Shown here: piece by piece, positions 2,426-12,683 of the stretch
How the letters are laid out: each line of letters begins with the position of its first letter
Numbering within the stretch: position 1 is the stretch's first letter
Assembly: GCA_020435085.1 (NCBI GenBank)
Contig: JAGRAB010000010.1
Span: forward strand, 1 to 16,160
Direction: 5' to 3'
Origin: Bdellovibrionales bacterium
GTDB lineage: Bacteria > Bdellovibrionota > Bdellovibrionia > Bdellovibrionales > UBA1609
Length of the DNA: 16,160 nucleotides
Position numbers and translations under genes: made by a program
Notes under the pieces: model-generated
What the model saw: only the letters and a program-made list of their open reading frames with translations
What the model was told of the DNA's origin: nothing
Database searches by the model: none

Positions 2426-3331
2426 ATGTTAAGCTTTGATTTCATATTATTGATAAGTGGTCTGTTTCTTTTTGGATTTGCGGCCTATCTTTTCATGTCT
2501 GCCATATTTACCAACAACACCGATGCGGATGCCTTGGCTTGGGCTTCTGGTGATGAACCTGAAAAATCTAAAAATGCTTTAATTAATTTTTCTCGCCCAC
2601 TTGTTCATAACTTTACCTTGCAACATGCTCAAAAGGTAACCGCAGAAAATTATCGAAAAAATATTGAGAAACGAATTCTTACTGCTGGTCTCTCTCAAGA
2701 AATCAATGTGGATGAGTATATTGGCCTCCAAATCCTTTGGGGACTTATGTTCCCCTTTGCTGCTACCGTTTTAAACTTTGCTTTACAGCTGGGCTACCCC
2801 TATTGGTTTGGTGGAGTCATTTCTGTTTTTGGAGTTTTGTTTCCTGGCATCTATTGCAATACCCGAAAAAAATTAAGATACACAGCCGTTGTTATTGATC
2901 TTCCATTTTTTATTGATCTTCTCGCCCTTTCAACAGAAGCCGGTTTGGATTTTATTGGTGCGATTCAACGGATCGTTGAAAAAGCCGAAAACAGTGTTCT
3001 CGCCGATGAACTTCGCATCGTCTTGAAAGATATTAAGCTGGGAAGTTCTCGGGCAGATGCTCTCAAAGCCATGTCTCAACGACTCGATATTCCAGAAATC
3101 ACCTCATTTATTGCAGTAGTGATTGATGCTGACTCTACCGGAGCAAGCATTTCTCAAGTACTCAAAGACCAATCAGAACAAATGCGACTTGAACGTTTTG
3201 TCCGTGCCGAAAAAGCGGGGGCTCAAGCTTCTCAAAAAATGCTGATCCCAATGATGATGTTTATTTTGCCAGCGGTATTTATTATGGTGTTTGCCCCTGT
3301 CATTCTTCAATTTTTTTATGGAGGCAAGTAA
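2426..3331 (+). CDS. tadC: TadC-like type II secretion F-domain inner-membrane protein
   Basis: A 301-residue polytopic protein of the T2SF family, most like TadC, one of the paired platform proteins in the inner membrane of Tad (Flp) pilus machines that work with the TadA ATPase. Predicted membrane segments lie near residues 5-27, 101-121, 126-145 and 272-296. The T2SF core spans about 156-290 and contains L-P-F-F-I-D-L-L-A-L-S-T-E-A-G-L-D, a highly typical TadC segment. The ribosome binding site AAAGGTAG is at 2415-2422. It opens the plus-strand operon; its stop overlaps the DUF192 start as TAATG. No tadA, tadB or flp gene is adjacent: the upstream neighbour is divergent maf, so the rest of the machine must lie elsewhere. 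Confidence 0.85.
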   Translation: MLSFDFILLISGLFLFGFAAYLFMSAIFTNNTDADALAWASGDEPEKSKNALINFSRPLVHNFTLQHAQKVTAENYRKNIEKRILTAGLSQEINVDEYIGLQILWGLMFPFAATVLNFALQLGYPYWFGGVISVFGVLFPGIYCNTRKKLRYTAVVIDLPFFIDLLALSTEAGLDFIGAIQRIVEKAENSVLADELRIVLKDIKLGSSRADALKAMSQRLDIPEITSFIAVVIDADSTGASISQVLKDQSEQMRLERFVRAEKAGAQASQKMLIPMMMFILPAVFIMVFAPVILQFFYGGK

Positions 3332-3678
3332 TGAACCGCCTCATGAATAAAACTAAAAATACAATTGTTGCTAATCAAATTGAAGAAGCAAAAACATTCT
3401 TCGAGCGTTCAAGAGGTCTCTTGGGCAGAAAACAACTTTCTCAAGGACATGCCCTGTGGATACATCATTGCAGTAGCATTCATACTTTTTTTATGAAGTT
3501 TGATTTAGATCTTATTTTTGTAGATAAGAACTTAAAGGTTCAATCGATTTATCAAAACGTAAAACCATGGCGAGTGATTATTCCAGGCTTTTCTGCGCGA
3601 TCAGTTTTTGAGTTTTCTGCTGGCCAACTGAATCATGATATCATCGAAAAAGGAGACGAACTCTATGTTAGCAATTAG
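3331..3678 (+). CDS. DUF192 family protein
   Basis: A 115-residue protein with the DUF192 pattern: R-S-R-G-L-L-G-R near the N terminus, then C-S-S-I-H-T-F-F-M-K-F, K-P-W-R, and F-E-F-S-A-G followed by K-G-D-E-L. The family's biochemical role is unknown. There is no signal peptide, although many DUF192 proteins are secreted, so this copy is probably cytoplasmic. GGAGG about 7 nt upstream supports the ATG at 3331. The gene overlaps tadC-like by one base and the next gene by 14 nt. The tight coupling suggests co-translation with the FHA proteins. Confidence 0.85.
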   Translation: MNRLMNKTKNTIVANQIEEAKTFFERSRGLLGRKQLSQGHALWIHHCSSIHTFFMKFDLDLIFVDKNLKVQSIYQNVKPWRVIIPGFSARSVFEFSAGQLNHDIIEKGDELYVSN

Positions 3679-5302
3679 AATCGTCTCTGGACCTCAAACA
3701 GGGGCTGTTATTCCTCTTAATTCAGGAACTGCAACTATTGGTAGGTCTGAAGATTGTAGCTTCCAATTAGTGAGCCCAGGAGTTTCGAAGCAACATGCTA
3801 AAATCGAAGTTCTTTCTGGAAAGATTATCATTAGCGATTTAGATTCAAAAAATGGAACCTTTGTAAATGGTGTACAAATTCGAAATAAGTCATTAAAAGA
3901 AGGGGATCGCATTGCCCTTCATGATGTATTAATGGAGCTCATTGATACTGAAAAAGAAAAACCTTTAATGGTTCCACCACCCAATATTCATTATCCACCA
4001 CAGTTTGGCAATGTGGCTTACCAGCATCAGCCCTTTCAGCAACCCAGTGAGGCACAATATCATCCCCCTTCTCAAGGGTCACAATTGCATATGGCCGCAA
4101 ACAACGAAGAAGTTCCTCAAAATATTAATGCCAATGAATTTATGACGATGATAAATAACTATGTTGAAGATGTTGTACTTCCAGGTGTTTACCGACTCCC
4201 TCAATATCTCGAATTCAAATGGGTACTTGGTATTTTTATGGCTGGATTTATTATTCTTGTCACAGCCCTTTCAACAATTCCACTTTTACGAATTTTGAAA
4301 ACAAGTATTGAACGAGAAAGCCAAGAGCACGCGCTCACTATTGCTAAGCACCTTGCCGATGACAATCTCAATGCCATTGGTCAAGGTTTAAATACCGCTG
4401 TTTCAGTAGCTGGTGCACTGAAACGCCCTGGAGTTGTTGACGCTCTCGTTATTTCCAATGTTGATGGCAGTATTATTGCCCCTGCCTCCAAAGCTGGCTC
4501 TTATCCAGACATTGCATTTGTACATGATGCAAGAAAGCGTGGAAAAGAGGCCGTAGCACAAGTGGATTCAGATACAGTTGTTGCCCTTGCTCCTCTTGAG
4601 TTTTTCAATGCCGAAACAGGATCTCGAGGGATCACGGCTTACTCTGTAGTTGTTTATGATATGGGCTCTCTTGCTGTTGATGATGGAAAAACTCTCAGTC
4701 TCTTTATTCAAACCCTATTTATTGGACTCCTTATTGGGGGAATTCTCTTTTTCTTTCTCTATAAAATGATTGAGTACCCATTAAAGAGTATGAACCTTCA
4801 ACTCAATGATGCTCTTAAAAGTGGAGGTTCACACATTACTATTGACTATGATTTCCCTGTTTTACAAAATCTTGCTTCAAATATTAGTAGTGCACTCACT
4901 CGAACAAGTGATTCTGGAAGTTCAAATGCCATGACTTCATTTGAACCCGATCGCACCCACGAAATGAATAATCTTGTTGAGCTCATTGGTTTTGGATCTC
5001 TTACGATTAATGGCAACGATCGCACAATTTCTGCAATGAATGCTGTCTTTCAAGAAAAATCTCATATGAATCTTCAAGACTCACTCTATATGTCGGTTAA
5101 TGAAATTCCAGATCAAGCCCTCAAACTCAGCCTTATTGATTTATTAGAACGAGTTGATGCCGAGCCTGATCAAATTATCACCAATGAACTTGAATTTAAT
5201 GGTGAATCCTACCAACTGGCCGCACAAGCGGTTCAAGGAAGTCAGGGTATTTCTTATTATGTGATAGTTCTTTTACCAAATGACGGAGGTTATGACGAAT
5301 GA
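3665..5302 (+). CDS. FHA-domain transmembrane sensor-like protein with PAS-like C terminus
   Basis: A 545-residue protein. The start at 3665 has AAGGAG at 3650-3655 and begins right at the FHA domain; an upstream in-frame start at 3635 would add ten residues without an equally good site. FHA domain about 3-93 with intact phosphothreonine-contact motifs: G-R-S at 26-28, S-K-Q-H at 41-44, N-G-T at 63-65 and V-N-G at 67-69. A Pro/Gln/His-rich linker (about 100-150) leads to a membrane segment near 186-208, a roughly 130-residue loop (212-343) probably in the periplasm, and a second membrane segment near 346-366. The C-terminal part (about 440-537) looks PAS-like, a weak call from pattern. No kinase, cyclase or methyl-accepting domain is visible. 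It overlaps DUF192 by 14 nt and the next FHA gene as ATGA. A role in relaying an envelope signal to phosphothreonine-bearing partners is inferred. Confidence 0.8.
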   Translation: MLAIRIVSGPQTGAVIPLNSGTATIGRSEDCSFQLVSPGVSKQHAKIEVLSGKIIISDLDSKNGTFVNGVQIRNKSLKEGDRIALHDVLMELIDTEKEKPLMVPPPNIHYPPQFGNVAYQHQPFQQPSEAQYHPPSQGSQLHMAANNEEVPQNINANEFMTMINNYVEDVVLPGVYRLPQYLEFKWVLGIFMAGFIILVTALSTIPLLRILKTSIERESQEHALTIAKHLADDNLNAIGQGLNTAVSVAGALKRPGVVDALVISNVDGSIIAPASKAGSYPDIAFVHDARKRGKEAVAQVDSDTVVALAPLEFFNAETGSRGITAYSVVVYDMGSLAVDDGKTLSLFIQTLFIGLLIGGILFFFLYKMIEYPLKSMNLQLNDALKSGGSHITIDYDFPVLQNLASNISSALTRTSDSGSSNAMTSFEPDRTHEMNNLVELIGFGSLTINGNDRTISAMNAVFQEKSHMNLQDSLYMSVNEIPDQALKLSLIDLLERVDAEPDQIITNELEFNGESYQLAAQAVQGSQGISYYVIVLLPNDGGYDE

Positions 5303-6261
5303 CATATCCAGCCGTCCCTTTAGCAAACCCTGCAAAATATTGCTTAAAAGTTTTAAATGGCCCTCAAAAAGGAACTAAGTTCAAACTTATTGCTCCCAAA
5401 GTGACATTAGGACGCTCATCAGAAAATGATATATCTTTAGAAAATGATTCTAAAATATCTCGACAACACTTAATGATTGAATTTGGCCCTCACGGGTATG
5501 AAGCAAAAAGTCTTAGCAACAAAAACCCTGTTTATATTAATGGATATGAGTCTGCACATGCCCTTCTGCAAAATGGTTCGAAAATTCGCATTGGAGATAC
5601 AGAATTTATCTTTGAGATTGAAACTTCTCAATTACCTCAATTGGCCGAAGTGAAATCTCCCAGCCTTCCAGGTTTTGAAAAACCACAAAAGAAAATACGA
5701 CGTTCAAAAAATTCTAAAAAGAAACCTTCTTCTTTAACTTTTAAAATTATTGTTGGTAGTCTTATCTTGTTTTTTGCTTGGCTCTTCACCTCTAGTGGAC
5801 CTAAAAAGAATATCAATATTAATATTAGCACTGCCAAAGATATCGAAAATGAAATTAATGAAGCCCATCGCATTCGCCAAGCGAAAGAAGAAGAAGCACG
5901 CATTAATAACAAAAACACTTCACAATATAGAGATGCTCAAGCCAATTATGTTAAAGGCTTTCGTGACTATCAAAAAGGACAATTTGCAAGAGCCCGAGAT
6001 GCCTTTCAAACATGTTTAAGTTTGTATCCTGAACATGTTCTTTGCCAAAGATACTATCGTTTGAGCGATCGTAAATTTAACGAATTGATTCAACAGTATA
6101 TGATTCTTGGACGTGATTACCAAGATAGAAATCAATATCAAGCATGTATGAATAGTTTAAGAACTGTCATGGTTATGATGAAAGATCGTAATGACCCGAC
6201 TTATAAGCAGGCAAAAGCAAGTTATGATGCTTGTGAAGCCCAATTAGGAGCTCGCTACTAA
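5299..6261 (+). CDS. FHA-domain protein with single membrane span and TPR-like tail
   Basis: A 320-residue protein. FHA domain about 14-108 with G-R-S at 38-40 and S-R-Q-H at 54-57; the usual N-G-T turn is altered to N-P-V (76-78), followed by I-N-G. A strongly basic run (131-142) precedes one membrane segment (about 147-165), which by the positive-inside rule puts the FHA domain in the cytoplasm. The tail (about 168-320) is helical and TPR-like, with the repeat-type stretch Y-x-K-G-x-x-D-Y-x-x-G-Q-F-x-x-A-R. It therefore resembles a cytoplasmic phosphopeptide reader joined to a periplasmic protein-interaction scaffold. GGAGG at 5285-5289 supports the start; ATG overlaps the previous stop as ATGA, and the next ATG begins on the last base of its own stop. 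Confidence 0.78.
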   Translation: MTYPAVPLANPAKYCLKVLNGPQKGTKFKLIAPKVTLGRSSENDISLENDSKISRQHLMIEFGPHGYEAKSLSNKNPVYINGYESAHALLQNGSKIRIGDTEFIFEIETSQLPQLAEVKSPSLPGFEKPQKKIRRSKNSKKKPSSLTFKIIVGSLILFFAWLFTSSGPKKNININISTAKDIENEINEAHRIRQAKEEEARINNKNTSQYRDAQANYVKGFRDYQKGQFARARDAFQTCLSLYPEHVLCQRYYRLSDRKFNELIQQYMILGRDYQDRNQYQACMNSLRTVMVMMKDRNDPTYKQAKASYDACEAQLGARY

Positions 6262-8264
6262 TGGTTCAGATTCGAGTCAAAAAACTTGGTGCTGAATTCG
6301 GTGAACTCATTCTTACCGAGGGGGAAGTCTATTTTGTTGGTCGCAGCAAGGACTGTGACCTTCGTTTAGATGCTGACAAAGGTATTTCAAGAAAACACCT
6401 TCGGATCTTTGAAAAAAATGGCATATGGATTGTTGAATCTCTCTCGCGGCTGGGAAATCTATTTTTAAATGGCTCTGAAGTCACCCAAATTGAGTTGAAT
6501 CAAAATTTACAGTTCGATGTCGAGAATTATACTTTTTCATTTATTCAAGAGCGATCTCATTCCACTCATAAAAAAGAAACTCCAGCTAATGAGTCAACAA
6601 CAGCCCAAACTCATCAAAATCAATTTTCAAATATACCTATTGCCATTGGTTCAACAGATGAAACTATTCAAATTGGATCTCGTAGTACTCACCAACAACC
6701 AAATCTTCATGCTTTTCTTAAAATCAGTGGTTTAGAAAAAGGGAATGATTCTATCCTTGAACTGGAAGGAAGCTTATGGGTCGGAGGACGAGATCCTCAC
6801 TGCGAAGTTCACATTGATGATGGACATGCAAGCCGAAAGCACTTTGAAATTACACGCAAAGACAATGAATTCTTTATTACTGACTTAAGTAGTGCCAATG
6901 GTACACACCTCAATGGAAACCGCCTAAAACCACATAAACCAATAAAAATTCTCAGTGGTGATATTATATCTATTGAACAAATTATCATTTTCTTTGAAGT
7001 TCGAGACTTAAGCTTTGAAAGTAAATTTGAAAATGCAAAAAAGCAACTACAAGTCATCTCCAGTCAAAGTGCACCCATGCAATATCCGCATCCTATTATG
7101 CTGCTCCCTCCATCACAGAACCACCCCCATGCATCTGTAATTATCGAAGGCCCCGAGACTTCTGAATCAGAATTTCATTGGAGGCGACCTGAAACTTATA
7201 GAAATTTCGACTATAAAAAGCATAAGGTGCATATTATTTTAGCGGCTTTAATTCCCATTTTATTTATTGGGATTTTCTCTGAAAATAAAAGCCCACAACC
7301 TATGGAGAAAAAAGAAAGTGCTTCAACGAGCAAAACCTTTGATTCCCTATCAAATGATCAAAAGGCTGCCGTTAAAGACATCTTTAACCTAGCTCAACAA
7401 CACTATCACTCTGTGAGATATGAACTTTGCATTACTGAACTTAAAAAATTGCATAATATTATCCCATCCTACGAAAACTCAAAAAAACTTGCTGAACTTT
7501 GTGAGCAAGGGACTATTCTGCTTCGCCAAGAAAAAGATCGCGAAGCTCGTGAAAAGAAAAAAGCAGAGACCGAACAAAAAATTATAACAACTGTTGAATA
7601 CTGCAAAACTCAGCTCTCTGAAAAAACAACTCTTGAAAATGCCAAAGAATGTCTTGGCGAAGCCTATGAACTTGATCCAGAGCACTCATCAATTCTTGCT
7701 TATCTTGATGAAATTCGATTACGCGATCAACTCAAAGAAGAGAAGGCTCAACAAATTTTAAAATTAAAGAATTTAATGAGTCGTGGGCGAGCTCAATTTG
7801 CAAAAGCAAAGTCTCTCGAAGAAAAAGATGAGCTCAGTAAATCTATTGAAGCTTATCGACAATTTTTATCTGCCAATTATCCAGGTTTAAAAAATGAACA
7901 CGAGTCTGCAAAACGAAGTTTGGCCTCTGTACAAGGAAAGCTTAATGAAAAAATAAAAACACTTCTCGAAGAATGTCAGGCCCTTCGATCTAATGGAAAA
8001 TTTAAAATGGCTTGGCAAAGTTGTGATAAGGCGACAAGAGAAGATCCTAAAAATTTAGATGCAAAAAAAGCAAAAGATGAGGCTCTTTCAGATTTACGTA
8101 AAGAAATGAAGTCCGTTTATCAAGATAGTATTCTCGAAGAAAGCCTTGGAAACGTTGATGCTGCAAAAGAAAAATGGCGATTGATTAGAAAAAATGACTT
8201 GGAATTTGAAGACTATTATAAGAAAGCGACAAGGAAACTACAAAAGTACGGCGAAGGCATTTAA
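6261..8264 (+). CDS. Double-FHA membrane protein with long helical TPR/coiled-coil tail
   Basis: A 667-residue protein with two FHA domains. The first (about 2-97) keeps G-R-S (27-29) and S-R-K-H (43-46), but its asparagine turn is degraded to S-R-L-G-N-L-F-L-N-G, so phosphothreonine binding is doubtful. The second (about 150-250) is canonical: G-R at 176-177, S-R-K-H at 191-194, S-A-N-G-T at 211-215 and L-N-G at 217-219. A Pro-rich linker (about 270-320) leads to one membrane segment (323-340). The remaining 325 residues are charged, helical and TPR/coiled-coil-like, with repeated patterns such as A-x-E-C-L-G-E-A-Y-E-L-D-P and A-W-Q-S-C-D-K-A-T-R-E-D-P. Orientation is inferred as FHA inside, tail in the periplasm. 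It shares this plan with the preceding gene and starts on the last base of that gene's stop, so duplication and elaboration are likely. Confidence 0.78.
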   Translation: MVQIRVKKLGAEFGELILTEGEVYFVGRSKDCDLRLDADKGISRKHLRIFEKNGIWIVESLSRLGNLFLNGSEVTQIELNQNLQFDVENYTFSFIQERSHSTHKKETPANESTTAQTHQNQFSNIPIAIGSTDETIQIGSRSTHQQPNLHAFLKISGLEKGNDSILELEGSLWVGGRDPHCEVHIDDGHASRKHFEITRKDNEFFITDLSSANGTHLNGNRLKPHKPIKILSGDIISIEQIIIFFEVRDLSFESKFENAKKQLQVISSQSAPMQYPHPIMLLPPSQNHPHASVIIEGPETSESEFHWRRPETYRNFDYKKHKVHIILAALIPILFIGIFSENKSPQPMEKKESASTSKTFDSLSNDQKAAVKDIFNLAQQHYHSVRYELCITELKKLHNIIPSYENSKKLAELCEQGTILLRQEKDREAREKKKAETEQKIITTVEYCKTQLSEKTTLENAKECLGEAYELDPEHSSILAYLDEIRLRDQLKEEKAQQILKLKNLMSRGRAQFAKAKSLEEKDELSKSIEAYRQFLSANYPGLKNEHESAKRSLASVQGKLNEKIKTLLEECQALRSNGKFKMAWQSCDKATREDPKNLDAKKAKDEALSDLRKEMKSVYQDSILEESLGNVDAAKEKWRLIRKNDLEFEDYYKKATRKLQKYGEGI

Positions 8265-8292
8265 ATAAATTTAACATCAAAGTAAGGCATCT

Positions 8293-8973
8293 ATGCAAAT
8301 TTATGAACAAGCCTATGGCGGCAAAATATTTAGACCTACTCCTGAGGTTCATCTTGAAGACGATGGAAGCCTTTGTATTATAGCCACACCCTGGGGTGGC
8401 AGAAGCAGTGCTAAAAAAGCTATTGAGGTGATCGTTGATACCTTTCTCTCGTCGCATACTGACCTAGAATCGACAACTCCATTTGAAAAAGACTTGAGCA
8501 TCTCTCCCACCGCCAATCACCTTAGAGCAGCTACATTATTAGCTAATCAACAAATTTATGCTGAAATAAATACGAACGAATACCATAGTGGATGTGAGCT
8601 TTTTGTTTGTGCAAAAATAGATAATGAGCTGAGTATTATCCAAACGGGGCAACCACAAGTATTTCTTGCAAAAAAATCATTACCCATTGTTCCTTTGGCA
8701 ACTGCAGCTGATTTGAGCACATGTCTTAGTCCCAACGGTTATCAGCTGCCTCCTCTCCCGAATGCACTTATGGGATTAGAAAAGACAATTCAATTGAACC
8801 TGTACACTTACCCTCTTTCCTCTGACTGTAAAGTTATTTTATTGAGCCGCTCTTTTGTACCACCACGATTTTTATCGGTTGACGGTTCTGACGTGAATAT
8901 TGAACTTTTAGTTGATACACTCATCAAGCAAGATGAAAGTATGCCTTTTTGGTTGGGAGTCATTCAATTATGA
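8293..8973 (+). CDS. PP2C-fold protein, probable pseudophosphatase
   Basis: A 226-residue protein recognised only by pattern as PP2C-like. An early strand and turn read I-A-T-P-W-G-G-R-S-S-A (30-40), where PP2C enzymes have a D-G-M-G-G turn followed by S or G residues. A helix with L-x-A-A-x-L-L-A-N-Q-x-I-Y is followed by G-C-E-L-F-V-C-A-K-I-D-N-E-L and T-G-Q-P-Q-V-F-L (118-125), where active enzymes have G-D-S-R-x-Y. A later L-L-S-R-S-F replaces the usual S-D-G-L. All three expected metal-binding aspartates therefore appear substituted. FHA and PP2C genes often travel together with Ser/Thr kinases; none is in this window. AAGG lies before the start. The stop overlaps the radical SAM start as ATGA. 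An unrelated fold remains possible. Confidence 0.55.
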   Translation: MQIYEQAYGGKIFRPTPEVHLEDDGSLCIIATPWGGRSSAKKAIEVIVDTFLSSHTDLESTTPFEKDLSISPTANHLRAATLLANQQIYAEINTNEYHSGCELFVCAKIDNELSIIQTGQPQVFLAKKSLPIVPLATAADLSTCLSPNGYQLPPLPNALMGLEKTIQLNLYTYPLSSDCKVILLSRSFVPPRFLSVDGSDVNIELLVDTLIKQDESMPFWLGVIQL

Positions 8974-9725
8974 AAGAGCTGTGTTCGCCAGTAAAAGCTT
9001 CAAGACGCTTTGGAACAGTTGTCGAGGTAAATCCCCTTGGATCAGGTAAGCTTTGCTCTTTTGACTGTATTTATTGCGATTTAGGCCCCAGTGAAATTCG
9101 AATGAATCAAATTCGAAAAGAAACAGATTTTCCTAAAGTTGAAGATATTGATACTGCCGTTAGAGAAACCTTGAGAAGTGCCAATACTGCAAATGAAAAT
9201 ATCGATACGATTGTTATTTCTGGAAATGGGGAGCCCACTTTATATCCCGATCTTCCAGATTTGATTGATAGGCTTTTAGCTATTCGACAAGAAATCGTAC
9301 CACAAGCAAAAATCGTTATTCTTACCAATGGCGTTCACTTTGATACGAATAAACTCATTGCTGCTCTTAACCTATTAGACGAGCGTATTATTAAACTTGA
9401 TTGTGGAAATGAAAATGCCTTTAAAACCACAAATCGCCCCTTAGTTCGAGCAAATATTTCTCGCGTGACTTCCGGTGGAAGAAAATTGAAAGATTGTATT
9501 GCCCAAAGTTTATTTTATGGAGGCCCTCAAGGGAATGATACAAAAGAATTAATTGATGAGTGGCTTGAGGTACTTGGTATCTTGCAGCCCAAATGTGTTC
9601 AAATTTATACAATCAATCGCTCCCCACTTGTCGAAGACTGCCGACCATTGACTGAAGATGAGCTCTATACGATTCAATCTCTTCTGAAACGAAAACTCTC
9701 AATTGAATCAAAAGTTTTCACTTGA
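8970..9725 (+). CDS. Radical SAM protein, COG0731 type
   Basis: A 251-residue radical S-adenosylmethionine enzyme. The [4Fe-4S]-binding motif C-S-F-D-C-I-Y-C has C29, C33 and C36, the C-x3-C-x2-C spacing. A G-N-G-E-P-T motif (85-90) corresponds to the SAM-binding GGEP region, and the N-terminal V-V-E-V-N-P-L-G-S-G-K matches the COG0731 family, which is related to tRNA-wyosine (TYW1-like) enzymes. The substrate is unknown. I chose the ATG at 8970, which overlaps the preceding TGA as ATGA and has GGGAG at 8955-8959; a TTG at 8949 would add seven residues. It is coupled to the PP2C-like gene, perhaps only by operon position. Its last 18 nt overlap the end of the opposite-strand gene. Confidence 0.85.
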   Translation: MKELCSPVKASRRFGTVVEVNPLGSGKLCSFDCIYCDLGPSEIRMNQIRKETDFPKVEDIDTAVRETLRSANTANENIDTIVISGNGEPTLYPDLPDLIDRLLAIRQEIVPQAKIVILTNGVHFDTNKLIAALNLLDERIIKLDCGNENAFKTTNRPLVRANISRVTSGGRKLKDCIAQSLFYGGPQGNDTKELIDEWLEVLGILQPKCVQIYTINRSPLVEDCRPLTEDELYTIQSLLKRKLSIESKVFT

Positions 9726-11546
9726 GACTCTTGCCATCACCTGACGAGCAAATCCCTTTAGCTTAGGTAAAGCCAGGGCCAAATCAGTAAGAGATGGCCC
9801 TGCAGGAATGTTTTTAGATACCGACCACGTAAGACCATTTTTAAAATTGAGCTCACCGAGTCTCGTATCTATTTTCTGGGTTTTATAAAGTCTTAAAAAA
9901 TTCTCTTTGAAGAGAATTGCTTTTTGAGGATTTTCCTCATTGACCCAAAGCAAAAGTGCTAAATATGTAGGATCATTACACTGTCTTTGTAATGTTGCAT
10001 CAGCCAAACTTTTTAATGTTTTTTCACATCCTTTGAGCTTTGTGTTTTTTATTCTTTGATTGAGGTTTCTTAAAGCCACATATTTCCAAGTAAAAACCCC
10101 TGCATCATCTGCAATTTTTAACAACTCCTCCCAGTCTTCCTTGGCTAAAATTTGAGAAGCTCTCCATCCCCAAACTTGTTGATCCCAACTTCTCTTTTTT
10201 GAAATATGAATTAATCTTTTATTCAGATCAGACGTTATCCCTTGAGGGCTCCAGATTTCTCTTCCAACGGCTAATTTTTCTGCCAAAGTTTCTGGAATAG
10301 GCCTCCATGGCTGTATTTCATTTTCTTTTAAAAAGTGATTCATTTTTTCTATCGGCAAACGCACTAATGGATCACTTTCTTCAATTTTGACCTGTTCTTG
10401 GCGATCGATAAGTGTGTTATATATTTTTATATTTTGATCATAAATTAATAATAACTGATCTAATCTTAAGCTCCATCGTTGAGTACCAACTTCTTGCCAA
10501 CTCGGCCATCCCGACTCAGAAATTAAAATACGATCTTGAGGCCAATCGACATCTGGTGTTTTCAAAACATTTAATAATGACCGCGTATCAAATCGACTCT
10601 TCTGAACAGGCTCCCGCCCAATCATACTCCATAATGTCACACCAAGATCAACAAGACTTACATTTCTATCAATGGTCCACTGTAAACCTAAATCTCTTTT
10701 TTTAGTGGCTGGTTTAATAAATAACTTTACCTGGGTATTTGAGCTATAAAGACTATAAGCACGTTCTTCAAAAGGACGAATAGAAAAATATCCCCCATTC
10801 AATCCTGCTAAAACAACGTACGTATTATCCCAATATCCCCATCGACGAAGTTGCTGAACGAGTCGAAATAAAGACTCACTCACTTCAGCTAATTGACTTT
10901 TAATTGATAAACTCCTTATTTCTCCCGCACTATTAAACGTTGTTACATCTGGAAACTGCAAATCGCTGGCATATAAAACAGAAAAAAATGGAGCACTGAC
11001 AGATTTTTGTTTCAACCAGCTGAGAAATAGATCTACTGTCTCACCAATGGGTCGATAAAATTCATTATTATTCACCTTAATATTGTCATCAAAGATTTGA
11101 AACCCTTGTGCAAAACCAGACTTTCTCCAAATTGGTGCTCCACCAGAAAGAAACAGTGTCTGAAATCCCAAATTCGATGCAGATTCAGAAACTGTTTGAA
11201 TCGCTCCTTTTAAATGATCACGACCTTGGTTATGAACATCATGTTCCTGTGGATAAAGGCCTGTCAGCATTGATGCTAATGAAGGCTGAGATAAGGTGGA
11301 TGGCGCGTAAGCATGCGTGAAACGAACAGCCTCATCACAAAAGACTTTAAGCCCTGAAAAATCAACATTTGTCTCAATCTCTTCAGAAGTGCAAGAAAAT
11401 GAGTCAAATGATAGGCCTTCAACAGCAATAACGAGGATTGAGGGAATCTTATTTTGGTTCCAAGAGCATCCTGTCAAACTTAGAGCTAGGAATGCTCCAA
11501 AGGCAAAATACCTTATTTTCACTTTTATCGTTTTAACGCTAAACAT
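9708..11546 (-). CDS. Sulfatase/alkaline-phosphatase-fold lipoprotein, metal site degraded
   Basis: A 612-residue exported protein. The ATG at 11546 has GAGGG 5 nt upstream and gives a lipoprotein signal peptide ending L-S-L-T-G-C (Cys27); a longer start at 11588 adds 14 residues before the signal. The fold is recognised from T-L-S-Q-P-S-L-A-S-M-L-T-G-L-Y-P (84-99), close to the C/S-x-P-S-x-A-S-x-x-T-G signature of sulfatases and phosphotransferases. Metal-site motifs look broken: the first-strand Asp is Glu (V-E-G, 42-44), and the usual T-S-D-H-G is A-G-L-N-G (247-251), losing both Asp and His. The C-terminal part (about 390-612) has no recognised domain and looks helical, possibly repeat-like. 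A structural or binding role at the inner or outer membrane is inferred. Confidence 0.7.
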   Translation of the reverse strand: MFSVKTIKVKIRYFAFGAFLALSLTGCSWNQNKIPSILVIAVEGLSFDSFSCTSEEIETNVDFSGLKVFCDEAVRFTHAYAPSTLSQPSLASMLTGLYPQEHDVHNQGRDHLKGAIQTVSESASNLGFQTLFLSGGAPIWRKSGFAQGFQIFDDNIKVNNNEFYRPIGETVDLFLSWLKQKSVSAPFFSVLYASDLQFPDVTTFNSAGEIRSLSIKSQLAEVSESLFRLVQQLRRWGYWDNTYVVLAGLNGGYFSIRPFEERAYSLYSSNTQVKLFIKPATKKRDLGLQWTIDRNVSLVDLGVTLWSMIGREPVQKSRFDTRSLLNVLKTPDVDWPQDRILISESGWPSWQEVGTQRWSLRLDQLLLIYDQNIKIYNTLIDRQEQVKIEESDPLVRLPIEKMNHFLKENEIQPWRPIPETLAEKLAVGREIWSPQGITSDLNKRLIHISKKRSWDQQVWGWRASQILAKEDWEELLKIADDAGVFTWKYVALRNLNQRIKNTKLKGCEKTLKSLADATLQRQCNDPTYLALLLWVNEENPQKAILFKENFLRLYKTQKIDTRLGELNFKNGLTWSVSKNIPAGPSLTDLALALPKLKGFARQVMARVSSENF

Positions 11547-11570
11547 AATTCCCTCAAATAGAATGATACC

Positions 11571-11600
11571 TTGACCACTGTTTTTCATTCCAGAGATAAT
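11571..11600 (+). promoter_or_regulatory. Sigma-70-type promoter for exbB-exbD
   Basis: TTGACC at 11571-11576 and GATAAT at 11595-11600 are separated by 18 bp. Each hexamer matches five of six consensus bases. It lies 36 nt before the exbB start in the gap between divergent genes, and AAAGGA at 11626-11631 is a good ribosome binding site downstream. Confidence 0.6.
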
Positions 11601-11636
11601 TTTAAAATCTTTTCAAGTATATGGGAAAGGAACAAA

Positions 11637-12269
11637 ATGTTTACAGAAAAGTTTTTTACAATTGCTGAGTTTGGCCATGAAATTACGCTCTGGGTGCTTA
11701 TTGCGCTGAGCATACTAAGTCTGACATTTATTCTTGAGAGGTTTTTCAGTCTTCGAAAGATGAAATCTGATAGCCAAAAAGTGGCCACACAAATCAATGA
11801 AGCCCTACAAAGTAGTCAAATTGCAGAAATTGGAGAACTGAGTCGAGATAAGCAAACTCTTGAGGGACGGGCCCTTTCTTACGGAATGAGACATGTCAAA
11901 GAGCATGGTGCTGCCGGCCTTGAAGAAATTTTCAACGCCTACACAATCATTGAAAAGCCAAGAATGGAAAGATACTTGAACTTCTTAGCTACGGTAGGCT
12001 CAAATGCTCCTTTTATTGGACTCCTTGGAACTGTTTTTGGAATTATGGATGCCTTTCGTGGGTTAGCAACAAGTCAAGGCGATGCTTCGGCTGTTATGAT
12101 TGGCATTTCAAAAGCACTGGTTGCAACAGCAATAGGTTTGATGGTCGCCATTCCCGCCATTATTGCCTATAACTATTTTCAAAAGCAGGTAAAAGGTATT
12201 TTGCAAAGCCTTGAAAGTGTTAAAGACCTTTGTCTGGCTTATGCAAAAGTTGCGAAAGGAAAACAATAA
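11637..12269 (+). CDS. exbB: ExbB/TolQ-family proton-channel protein
   Basis: A 210-residue inner-membrane protein of the MotA/TolQ/ExbB family, which forms a proton-driven motor with ExbD-type partners. The first membrane segment is near 15-34, then a cytoplasmic loop, then paired segments: L-A-T-V-G-S-N-A-P-F-I-G-L-L-G-T-V from 117, and I-S-K-A-L-V-A-T-A-I-G-L-M-V-A-I-P from 157. These are the family's signature helices. The ATG at 11637 follows AAAGGA; an upstream in-frame start at 11571 lies on the promoter -35 box and lacks similarity. It is followed directly by exbD with no gap. No TonB or TolA-type gene is in view, so it may power TonB transport, outer-membrane constriction or an Agl-like motility motor. 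Confidence 0.92.
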   Translation: MFTEKFFTIAEFGHEITLWVLIALSILSLTFILERFFSLRKMKSDSQKVATQINEALQSSQIAEIGELSRDKQTLEGRALSYGMRHVKEHGAAGLEEIFNAYTIIEKPRMERYLNFLATVGSNAPFIGLLGTVFGIMDAFRGLATSQGDASAVMIGISKALVATAIGLMVAIPAIIAYNYFQKQVKGILQSLESVKDLCLAYAKVAKGKQ

Positions 12270-12683
12270 ATGGCTGCAAAAATTGGAGGCGAATCTGACG
12301 AGCCAATAGCAGAAATCAATATTGTTCCCTTTGTCGATATTATTCTTGTAATTTTAATTATTTTTATGGTCACTACACCTATTATCATGAAACCAAGTAT
12401 TAATGTGAACCTCCCAAAAGCTGAGAGTGGTGATGATTCAACACCTTCAAAGCTAGGCATCACAATTACAAAAGATGGCAGAATTCTTCTTAATGGCGAG
12501 CCTTCTGATGTCGATGCTATAAAGGCCTATTCGGCTCAAGTCATCATTGAGAAACCAGATATTCAAGCTATTATTTCTGCAGACAAAGATGTGTCTCACG
12601 GCCAGGTGGTATCAGTGATTGATGCGGTAAAGTCTGGCGGCGTAAAAAAATTCGCGATCACCATCGACAAAGATCATCAATAA
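12270..12683 (+). CDS. exbD: ExbD/TolR-family protein
   Basis: A 137-residue partner of ExbB with one membrane anchor and a periplasmic domain. The N-terminal segment I-N-I-V-P-F-V-D-I-I-L-V-I-L-I-I-F-M has the conserved proton-carrying aspartate at D23. The periplasmic part ends with D-A-V-K-S-G-G-V-K-K-F-A-I, typical of the family's C-terminal dimer strand region. Length is normal. The ATG follows the exbB stop with no gap, with AAAGGA just upstream in the end of exbB. Its TAA stop is also the first triplet of a long inverted repeat, so insertion of that element may have supplied or preserved the stop. Confidence 0.92.
   Translation: MAAKIGGESDEPIAEINIVPFVDIILVILIIFMVTTPIIMKPSINVNLPKAESGDDSTPSKLGITITKDGRILLNGEPSDVDAIKAYSAQVIIEKPDIQAIISADKDVSHGQVVSVIDAVKSGGVKKFAITIDKDHQ

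Follow-up and report, generated by a model that had tools for sequence, protein, structure and literature searches.

The DNA analyzed here, called the window below, is a stretch of 16,160 nt from a Bdellovibrionales bacterium (class Bdellovibrionia, phylum Bdellovibrionota) and makes up contig C29 of a genome assembly that is only 61.85% complete, in 421 contigs. Seven closely spaced open frames lie on its plus strand at 2426-9725, and the first six of them, from a gene for a TadC-type protein to a gene that we call o6 (2426-8973), are the core unit, or block, treated in this report. The TadC-type protein (2426-3331) is an inner-membrane platform protein of 301 aa with a T2SSF domain (Pfam T2SSF, 2.3e-18), and its gene is followed by one for a DUF192 protein of 115 aa (3331-3678; Pfam DUF192, 5.2e-20). 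The next three genes encode membrane proteins with FHA domains. FHA1 (3635-5302, 555 aa; Pfam FHA, 2.8e-19) is laid out, according to a predicted model and hydropathy, as an FHA domain, a transmembrane (TM) segment, a Cache-like ectodomain, a second TM segment and a PAS-like C-terminal part. FHA2 (5299-6261, 320 aa; Pfam FHA, 1.4e-11; TPR_2 below cut-off) and FHA3 (6261-8264, 667 aa; Pfam FHA, 1e-30, two stretches) carry one and two FHA domains, respectively, followed by a TM segment and a TPR-like part that is predicted to be periplasmic. The sixth gene, o6 (8293-8973), encodes a PP2C-fold protein of 226 aa, as judged by a predicted model and Foldseek, in which TPWGG replaces the DGxGG motif; it is probably a pseudophosphatase. 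The seventh frame (8949-9725) starts with TTG and encodes a radical SAM protein (Pfam Radical_SAM, 3.2e-10).

The open frames and Pfam matches confirmed the seven packed genes listed by the original prediction, an earlier reading of this DNA (TadC-like, DUF192, three membrane FHA proteins, PP2C-like, radical SAM). Its assignment of the radical SAM gene to the block was not upheld: of the close loci, 18 of 56 have a radical SAM gene downstream in the orientation of the block, as do none of 15 loci outside the class (both sets are defined below), and this gene is a local neighbor. Successive genes overlap by 1, 14 or 44, 4 and 1 nt; a 28-nt gap precedes o6, which overlaps the radical SAM frame by 4 or 25 nt. 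The double values reflect alternative in-frame ATG codons at 3665 in FHA1 (14-nt overlap with the DUF192 gene, or 44 nt from the start at 3635) and at 8970 in the radical SAM gene (4-nt overlap, or 25 nt from the TTG). In 48 close loci, with frames taken from their longest start, the median gap was -1 nt at four junctions and -18.5 nt between the DUF192 and FHA1 genes.

The gene order was followed through the phylum in two sets of loci. The close loci were the best 80 of 255 matches to a TadC alignment; their class membership was taken from titles, which were Bdellovibrio-type or unresolved, together with a TadC identity of 53-85%. Counting was restricted to loci that have a TadC frame with 6.5 kb or more of sequence downstream of it; 56 close loci (24 omitted) and 15 of the 18 out-of-class regions L127-L144 (3 omitted) qualified. 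Both sets were selected by TadC, so the order counts, made on stop-to-stop frames, are conditional on TadC. The original prediction had proposed to look in Bdellovibrionota for the order TadC-DUF192-FHA-FHA-FHA. Among the close loci, 54 of 56 kept it as TadC>DUF192>FHA1>FHA2>FHA3, and o6 came directly after it in 52/56; outside the class the corresponding counts were 14/15 and 11/15. DUF192 followed TadC immediately in 55/56 close and 17/17 other loci, the exception being L195, which has no DUF192 gene. The remaining irregularities among close loci were a split of FHA1 (L220) or FHA3 (L199) into two frames and an o6 that was not seen (L163); outside the class, FHA1 lay in two frames in L137, and the o6 match was absent in L136, L137, L141 and L142. 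Two loci from another family of the class (L145 and L146) carry all six genes.

The block is nearly universal. A homolog of the window-type TadC (E <= 1e-30) was found in 139 of 143 class genomes, FHA3 (E <= 1e-20) in 137 and a strong match to a TadZ-TadA protein (E below 1e-150) in 134. In the phylum sample, TadC (query, the G047 protein; E <= 1e-20) was found in 189 of 191 genomes, all except G038 and G262. Because of this near-universality, loss of the block was uninformative as a test of co-occurrence; G038 and G016 lack TadC and FHA3 but also lack proC, which makes missing contigs likelier than gene loss.

In canonical Tad loci, TadC normally adjoins TadB. The tad locus of the window's own genome lies on another contig (C244, L104), which begins at two TadE-like frames that were named by eye and have no Pfam match, and continues with RcpC/CpaB (RcpC, 4.7e-21), a secretin (Secretin, 4e-20), a TadZ-TadA-type protein (T2SSE, 2.1e-62), TadB (T2SSF, 3.7e-20) and an RHS-repeat protein. 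The TadA ATPase, TadB, the secretin, RcpC/CpaB and the TadZ-like domain are thus all present, and no TadC was found in this locus or in the tad locus of B. bacteriovorus kdesi. The TadZ-TadA-type protein is a single frame of 759 aa (L104:3681-5960) that joins a MinD/ParA-type N-terminal part (CbiA/ParA match, TadZ-like) to a TadA ATPase, and full-length matches to it, in frames about 700-820 aa long, are found repeatedly in both the class and the phylum sample. The RHS-repeat protein (L104:6863-8560; Pfam DUF6531 and RHS), a counterpart of Bd0109, also follows TadB in B. bacteriovorus kdesi and in two other-family loci (L237, L238, L243), which extends the arrangement of the hit locus beyond Bdellovibrio. 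By eye, similar frames after TadB were also noted in G180, G175, G212 and G205.

The window TadC and the tad-locus TadB share 21-22% identity and give separate matches, which ruled out that they are the same gene. Against solved structures, TadC gave no sequence match at E 0.01. In a census of T2SSF and T2SSE frames, every one of 14 genomes had a single TadB-type frame, next to a long ATPase frame, and a single window-type TadC. Two two-domain T2SSF proteins of GspF/PilC type were present in 13 of the 14; the other, G001, has one and a fragment. Further T2SSF frames above cut-off were seen in G035 (555 and 206 aa), and one match each below cut-off in G017, G047, G052 and G055. For CpaG and CpaH, the TadB/TadC counterparts, a joint platform was proposed from an AlphaFold3 model (PMC12019362). 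TadB should therefore need a TadC, for which the window-type protein is the best candidate, and it is likely the partner of the tad-locus TadB.

The linkage of the two loci was followed in 46 out-of-class genomes with listed TadC places, which are not a random draw. Rather than being scattered and never near tad genes, the ordered block had TadZ-TadA 9.3-19.3 kb downstream of TadC on the same strand in 21 of the 46 (families f14, f17, f21, f22, f23, f25 and f26; G245 and G226 were counted through a partial TadZ-TadA match on the TadC contig). TadZ-TadA lay about 33 kb upstream in G194 and, in G176, on the TadC contig at a distance of about 421 kb; in the other 23 the two were on different contigs, which decides little in fragmented assemblies. 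Within the class, block and tad genes were at least 145 kb apart in all 13 single-contig genomes. Five single loci were read gene by gene and run TadC-DUF192-FHA1-FHA2-FHA3-o6, pilin/TadE-like frames, CpaB, secretin, TadZA, TadB and an RHS-like frame; in that of G205 a minus-strand frame separates TadZA from TadB. The single locus of G212 includes a prepilin peptidase (Peptidase_A24, 2.6e-16), and a Flp pilin was matched in the kdesi tad locus (Flp1_like, 1.4e-11) and, below cut-off, in G180 (5.8e-4); neither was seen in the window's own genome, where C244 begins only at the TadE-like frames. In G145, another of the five, one 917-aa frame (G145:C6:277624-280377) matched both the TadZ-TadA and the TadB profile and is possibly a fusion. 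In G237, the frame after FHA3 (L136:3862-4758) has a weak PP2C_2 match below cut-off (1.1e-4) and is followed by a TadA-type ATPase frame; the TadZ-TadA fusion of this genome sits on another contig. Membership of the block in the Tad system is strongly supported, and we infer that the single-locus form is older than the split form.

Hydropathy placed the TM segments at residues 197-215 and 357-375 of FHA1, 146-164 of FHA2 and 323-341 of FHA3. The Lys/Arg residues before and after the TM segment number 8 and 2 in FHA2 and 6 and 3 in FHA3, which fits cytoplasmic FHA domains; around the first TM segment of FHA1 they number 2 and 3. The counts agree with the cytoplasmic location proposed earlier for all four FHA domains in the case of FHA2 and FHA3, but they do not decide the orientation of FHA1. 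The TPR-like tails claimed for two proteins had TPR matches in FHA2 and FHA3, but both were weak and below the Pfam cut-off. Seven FHA matches in the genome lie on C29, C358, C224 and C241, and none was found by Pfam in the tad ATPase protein.

The predicted model of FHA1 (68 sequences, mean pLDDT 86.9, pTM 0.55) shows an FHA domain at about 11-105, a disordered linker, TM1 as a long helix, an alpha/beta ectodomain at about 245-345, a TM2 helix and a PAS-like domain at about 441-548. For FHA1, the FHA fold on which the original prediction depends was modeled at high confidence, and it resembles FHA domains of solved structure. In Foldseek, the top match was a WalK-YYCH model entry, and most other listed matches were FHA domains. 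WalK is a sensor kinase, and no kinase domain was found in FHA1. The fold match and the secondary structure suggest a Cache-like ectodomain and a PAS-like domain. The conserved Arg, Ser, His and Asn of FHA domains, which we take to be the phosphothreonine-site residues, were followed in alignments of class rows (69 for FHA1, 61 for FHA2, 59 for FHA3) and in a second set of 18 rows (L127-L146). In FHA1, Arg37, Ser51, His54 and Asn73 were invariant in all 69 class and 18 other rows, bar one masked residue at Arg37; this conserved site suggests that FHA1 is a phosphothreonine reader with putative binding activity. FHA2 of the second set kept all four residues in 18/18 rows.

No Pfam match was obtained for o6, even at E 1. 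Its predicted model (54 sequences, mean pLDDT 95.2) matched in Foldseek the phosphatases tPphA (1.1e-12) and PstP (1.7e-11) and PppA of the type VI secretion system (T6SS; 6jkv, 2.6e-10), and a profile search of solved structures returned five serine/threonine-phosphatase entries, all at E 0.007-0.008. Among six scanned out-of-class homologs, PP2C_2 was above the Pfam cut-off in four (best 3.8e-12) and below it in two; in L145, within the class, no PP2C match was found. When frames of 180-330 aa were counted, the metal motif DGxG[GD] was missing from all 61 class rows and kept in 11 of the 12 rows from outside the class (exception L127), and the x position in the class holds an invariant Trp (61/61). 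The [NQ]ED motif near the N-terminus was present in 4/61 and 10/12 rows, respectively. The earlier label "PP2C-like" thus fits the fold, with the DGxGG motif missing. Judging from the loss of this motif, o6 of Bdellovibrionia is probably a pseudophosphatase. A literature search among open-license papers gave no paper on a PP2C fold or a DGxGG loss in this block.

We consider it likely that the block at 2426-8973 encodes the platform and phospho-signaling half of a Tad machine, that is, of a type IVb pilus or Kil-like apparatus. TadC and TadB, the latter encoded elsewhere beside the TadZ-TadA fusion, would form the inner-membrane platform. Around the machine, FHA2 and FHA3 would form a scaffold anchored in the inner membrane, their FHA domains lying on the cytoplasmic side and their TPR-like tails on the periplasmic side. 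FHA1 would be a transmembrane sensor, with a Cache-like ectodomain and a cytoplasmic PAS-like domain, whose FHA domain is the recognizable cytoplasmic reader. Phosphothreonine would be made by a Ser/Thr kinase encoded elsewhere; FHA1 and one or more of the other FHA domains would read it, and this reading might gate pilus assembly or firing at contact with prey or a surface. The PP2C protein, which keeps phosphatase motifs in other classes, would act in Bdellovibrionia as a catalytically dead binding partner. A candidate for the writer of the phosphate mark is an unlinked Hanks-type kinase: a match above cut-off was present in 12/12 genomes searched (only a partial one in the window's own genome), and each of seven genomes scanned (L244-L250) has such a kinase of 640-705 aa, with PEGA in three of the seven; six were aligned. 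Of the trans-envelope assembly proposed by the original prediction, the Tad-linked membrane assembly is well supported by gene order, linkage and the FHA1 fold, while its coupling to phosphothreonine reading we infer.

The available parts of earlier papers on B. bacteriovorus bear on this reading. There, bd0470 (tadC) and bd0474 belong to one operon, the mutants bd0470::tn and bd0474::tn do not kill prey, plasmid copies restore this, and the authors suggested that Bd0474 is possibly part of type IVb machinery (PMC6561027). Bd0474 has two FHA domains and a TPR part, as does FHA3, its counterpart here; a two-hybrid test showed it to bind Bd0075, a TPR protein, and the interaction Bd0473-Bd0475 was predicted with an ipTM of 0.604, in the authors' grey range (PMC12034629). 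In host-independent strains, tadC bd0470 is downregulated together with bd0108-0121, of which bd0108-0109, bd0109-0110 and bd0110-0111 are co-transcribed pairs (PMC3818213). The tad operon bd0109-bd0119 was described with TadA and TadB, and the word TadC is absent from the available main text (PMC5430801).

Several observations weigh against the block being a phospho-signaling half of a Tad machine. The bd0470::tn mutant does not attach to prey, and bd0474::tn attaches without killing or rounding it (PMC6561027); because the two mutants differ, the block does not behave as a simple all-or-none unit. TadC and FHA3 were found in G002 and G134 (97% and 94% complete; in 300 and 240 contigs), but no TadZ-TadA match stronger than about 1e-96. 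In G042, a further 326-aa frame with two T2SSF matches, above cut-off (G042:C1:2437468-2438337) and not present in the other 13 census genomes, lies about 13 kb from TadB. A kinase gene in the cluster was looked for in 12 genomes, and no Pkinase match above cut-off was located closer than 20 kb to TadC. The putative phosphothreonine site varies in FHA2 and is partly degenerate in both FHA domains of FHA3. In the class rows of FHA2, Arg and Ser are kept in 61/61, His in 48/61 and Asn in 45/61. The first FHA domain of FHA3 has Arg, Ser and His in 59/59 rows, and the commonest residues at its NG pair do not include Asn; the second has Arg in 57/59, Ser in 58/59 and Asn in 57/59, with His in 31/59 and Gln in 28/59. 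The loss of DGxGG in the class fits a structural role equally well.

One alternative is that the FHA proteins are a phosphate-independent structural scaffold, like the ring protein SctD/YscD, in which a cytoplasmic FHA fold, a TM segment and a periplasmic part align the platform with the secretin, and that the dead PP2C protein is structural too. Yop-YscD_cpl Pfam matches above cut-off in all three FHA proteins and a match of the FHA1 model to a type III secretion system protein (4d9v, 2.3e-7) agree with such a scaffold, as do the predicted periplasmic TPR-like tails, the absence of DGxGG from every class row and the lack of a nearby kinase. The NCBIfam SctD model, however, scored 26.1, 19.7 and 18.1 for the three FHA proteins against a cut-off of 86 (no other type III secretion genes were searched for). 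A plain scaffold would not need the Arg, Ser, Lys, His and Asn of FHA1, which are essentially invariant, and FHA1 is sensor-like by its model; the out-of-class PP2C partners moreover keep DGxGG in all but one row. We regard this alternative as unlikely, though worth keeping in mind.

It is very improbable that the block serves another machine, such as a type IVa pilus or type II secretion, with TadC a recruited paralog and not the partner of TadB. In those 21 of 46 out-of-class genomes, the block and the tad genes are close together on one strand; in 13 of 14 census genomes, other machines are already served by two T2SSF proteins with two domains each; and TadB has no TadC beside it.

The genes around the block bear on the weakest alternative. 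In the window, a sulfatase-family protein is encoded on the minus strand (9708-11588), a class-level conserved neighbor of the block, and a pair of ExbB/TolQ-like and ExbD/TolR-like proteins at 11571-12683. The proC-yggS-maf and exbBD genes beside the block are also conserved at class level; exbB is downstream in 47/56 close loci and 0/15 out-of-class loci. The radical SAM, sulfatase and ExbBD genes were rejected as parts of the core, none of them being downstream of the block in the out-of-class regions. That the block is a neutral neighborhood, passively inherited without shared function, could appeal to these conserved flanks, but it is already largely contradicted and hardly credible, as the flanks were not found in the 18 out-of-class regions (bar an exbB-like frame upstream in L139 and L141), where block order is kept, and mutants of bd0470 and bd0474 both fail at predation (PMC6561027).

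With the block as the likely platform and phospho-signaling half of a Tad machine, a bolder extension can be stated, which we hold to be rather doubtful: the block may be a built-in phospho-switch of the Tad machine throughout the phylum, and in Bdellovibrionia the split locus and the dead phosphatase with its invariant Trp may have turned it from a reversible on/off control into a one-way or contact-latched trigger of pilus firing, with FHA1 as the contact sensor. Bdellovibrionia is the class that holds the periplasm-invading predators, and the block offers a small named set of proteins for prey-contact sensing and the firing of a Tad/Kil-type pilus, kept together over the phylum. The orphan tadC of Bdellovibrio likely supplies the partner that the TadB beside the hit locus lacks. 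Two features lend themselves to direct testing, the putative phosphothreonine site in FHA1 and the presumably dead active site in the PP2C-fold protein.

The threonine phosphorylation pathway of type VI secretion consists of PpkA, Fha/TagH and PppA. It resembles the block in tying an FHA reader and a PP2C-fold protein to an envelope machine, and the window PP2C model matches PppA. It differs in that the block has no nearby kinase and a PP2C protein without DGxGG, and the TagH model scored 39.4, 24.3 and 56.1 for the three FHA proteins, all below its cut-off of 120.25. With the canonical Tad/Cpa pilus of Caulobacter and Aggregatibacter, the system shares TadA, TadB, TadC, a TadZ-like domain, RcpC/CpaB, the secretin and, going by the match in kdesi, Flp; here, however, TadC stands apart from TadB, either at the opposite end of the locus or outside it, together with FHA and PP2C genes. 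A fusion of FHA to CpaF is a known variant, found mostly in betaproteobacteria according to the available part of PMC12019362.

In gene content, the Kil system of Myxococcus xanthus has, as here, a Tad core spread over two clusters and several FHA proteins among the tad genes (PMC8460266). Its ATPase carries an N-terminal FHA domain, whereas the ATPase here is fused to a MinD/ParA-type domain and has no FHA. In the available text, its authors put weight on the FHA proteins, listed B. bacteriovorus as Kil-like, proposed a signaling role for FHA and called the splitting of the Tad genes unique (PMC8460266).

The closest known system is Bd0470-Bd0475 of B. bacteriovorus, which like the window has six genes with tadC first (PMC6561027, PMC12034629). 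By order alone, Bd0471, Bd0472, Bd0473 and Bd0475 correspond to DUF192, FHA1, FHA2 and o6. Already known are this operon of B. bacteriovorus and Tad systems rich in FHA proteins. The available parts of the Bd0470-Bd0475 papers hold no mention of the PP2C fold, the phylum-wide order or the single-locus form, and the latter two were not met in the sampled literature, which was not searched for them by name. The gene order of the window was read in B. bacteriovorus kdesi (L208) too, from which the window has diverged to 62-63% identity in TadC and 32% in FHA3. The window holds an orthologous copy of Bd0470-Bd0475 in another family of the order.

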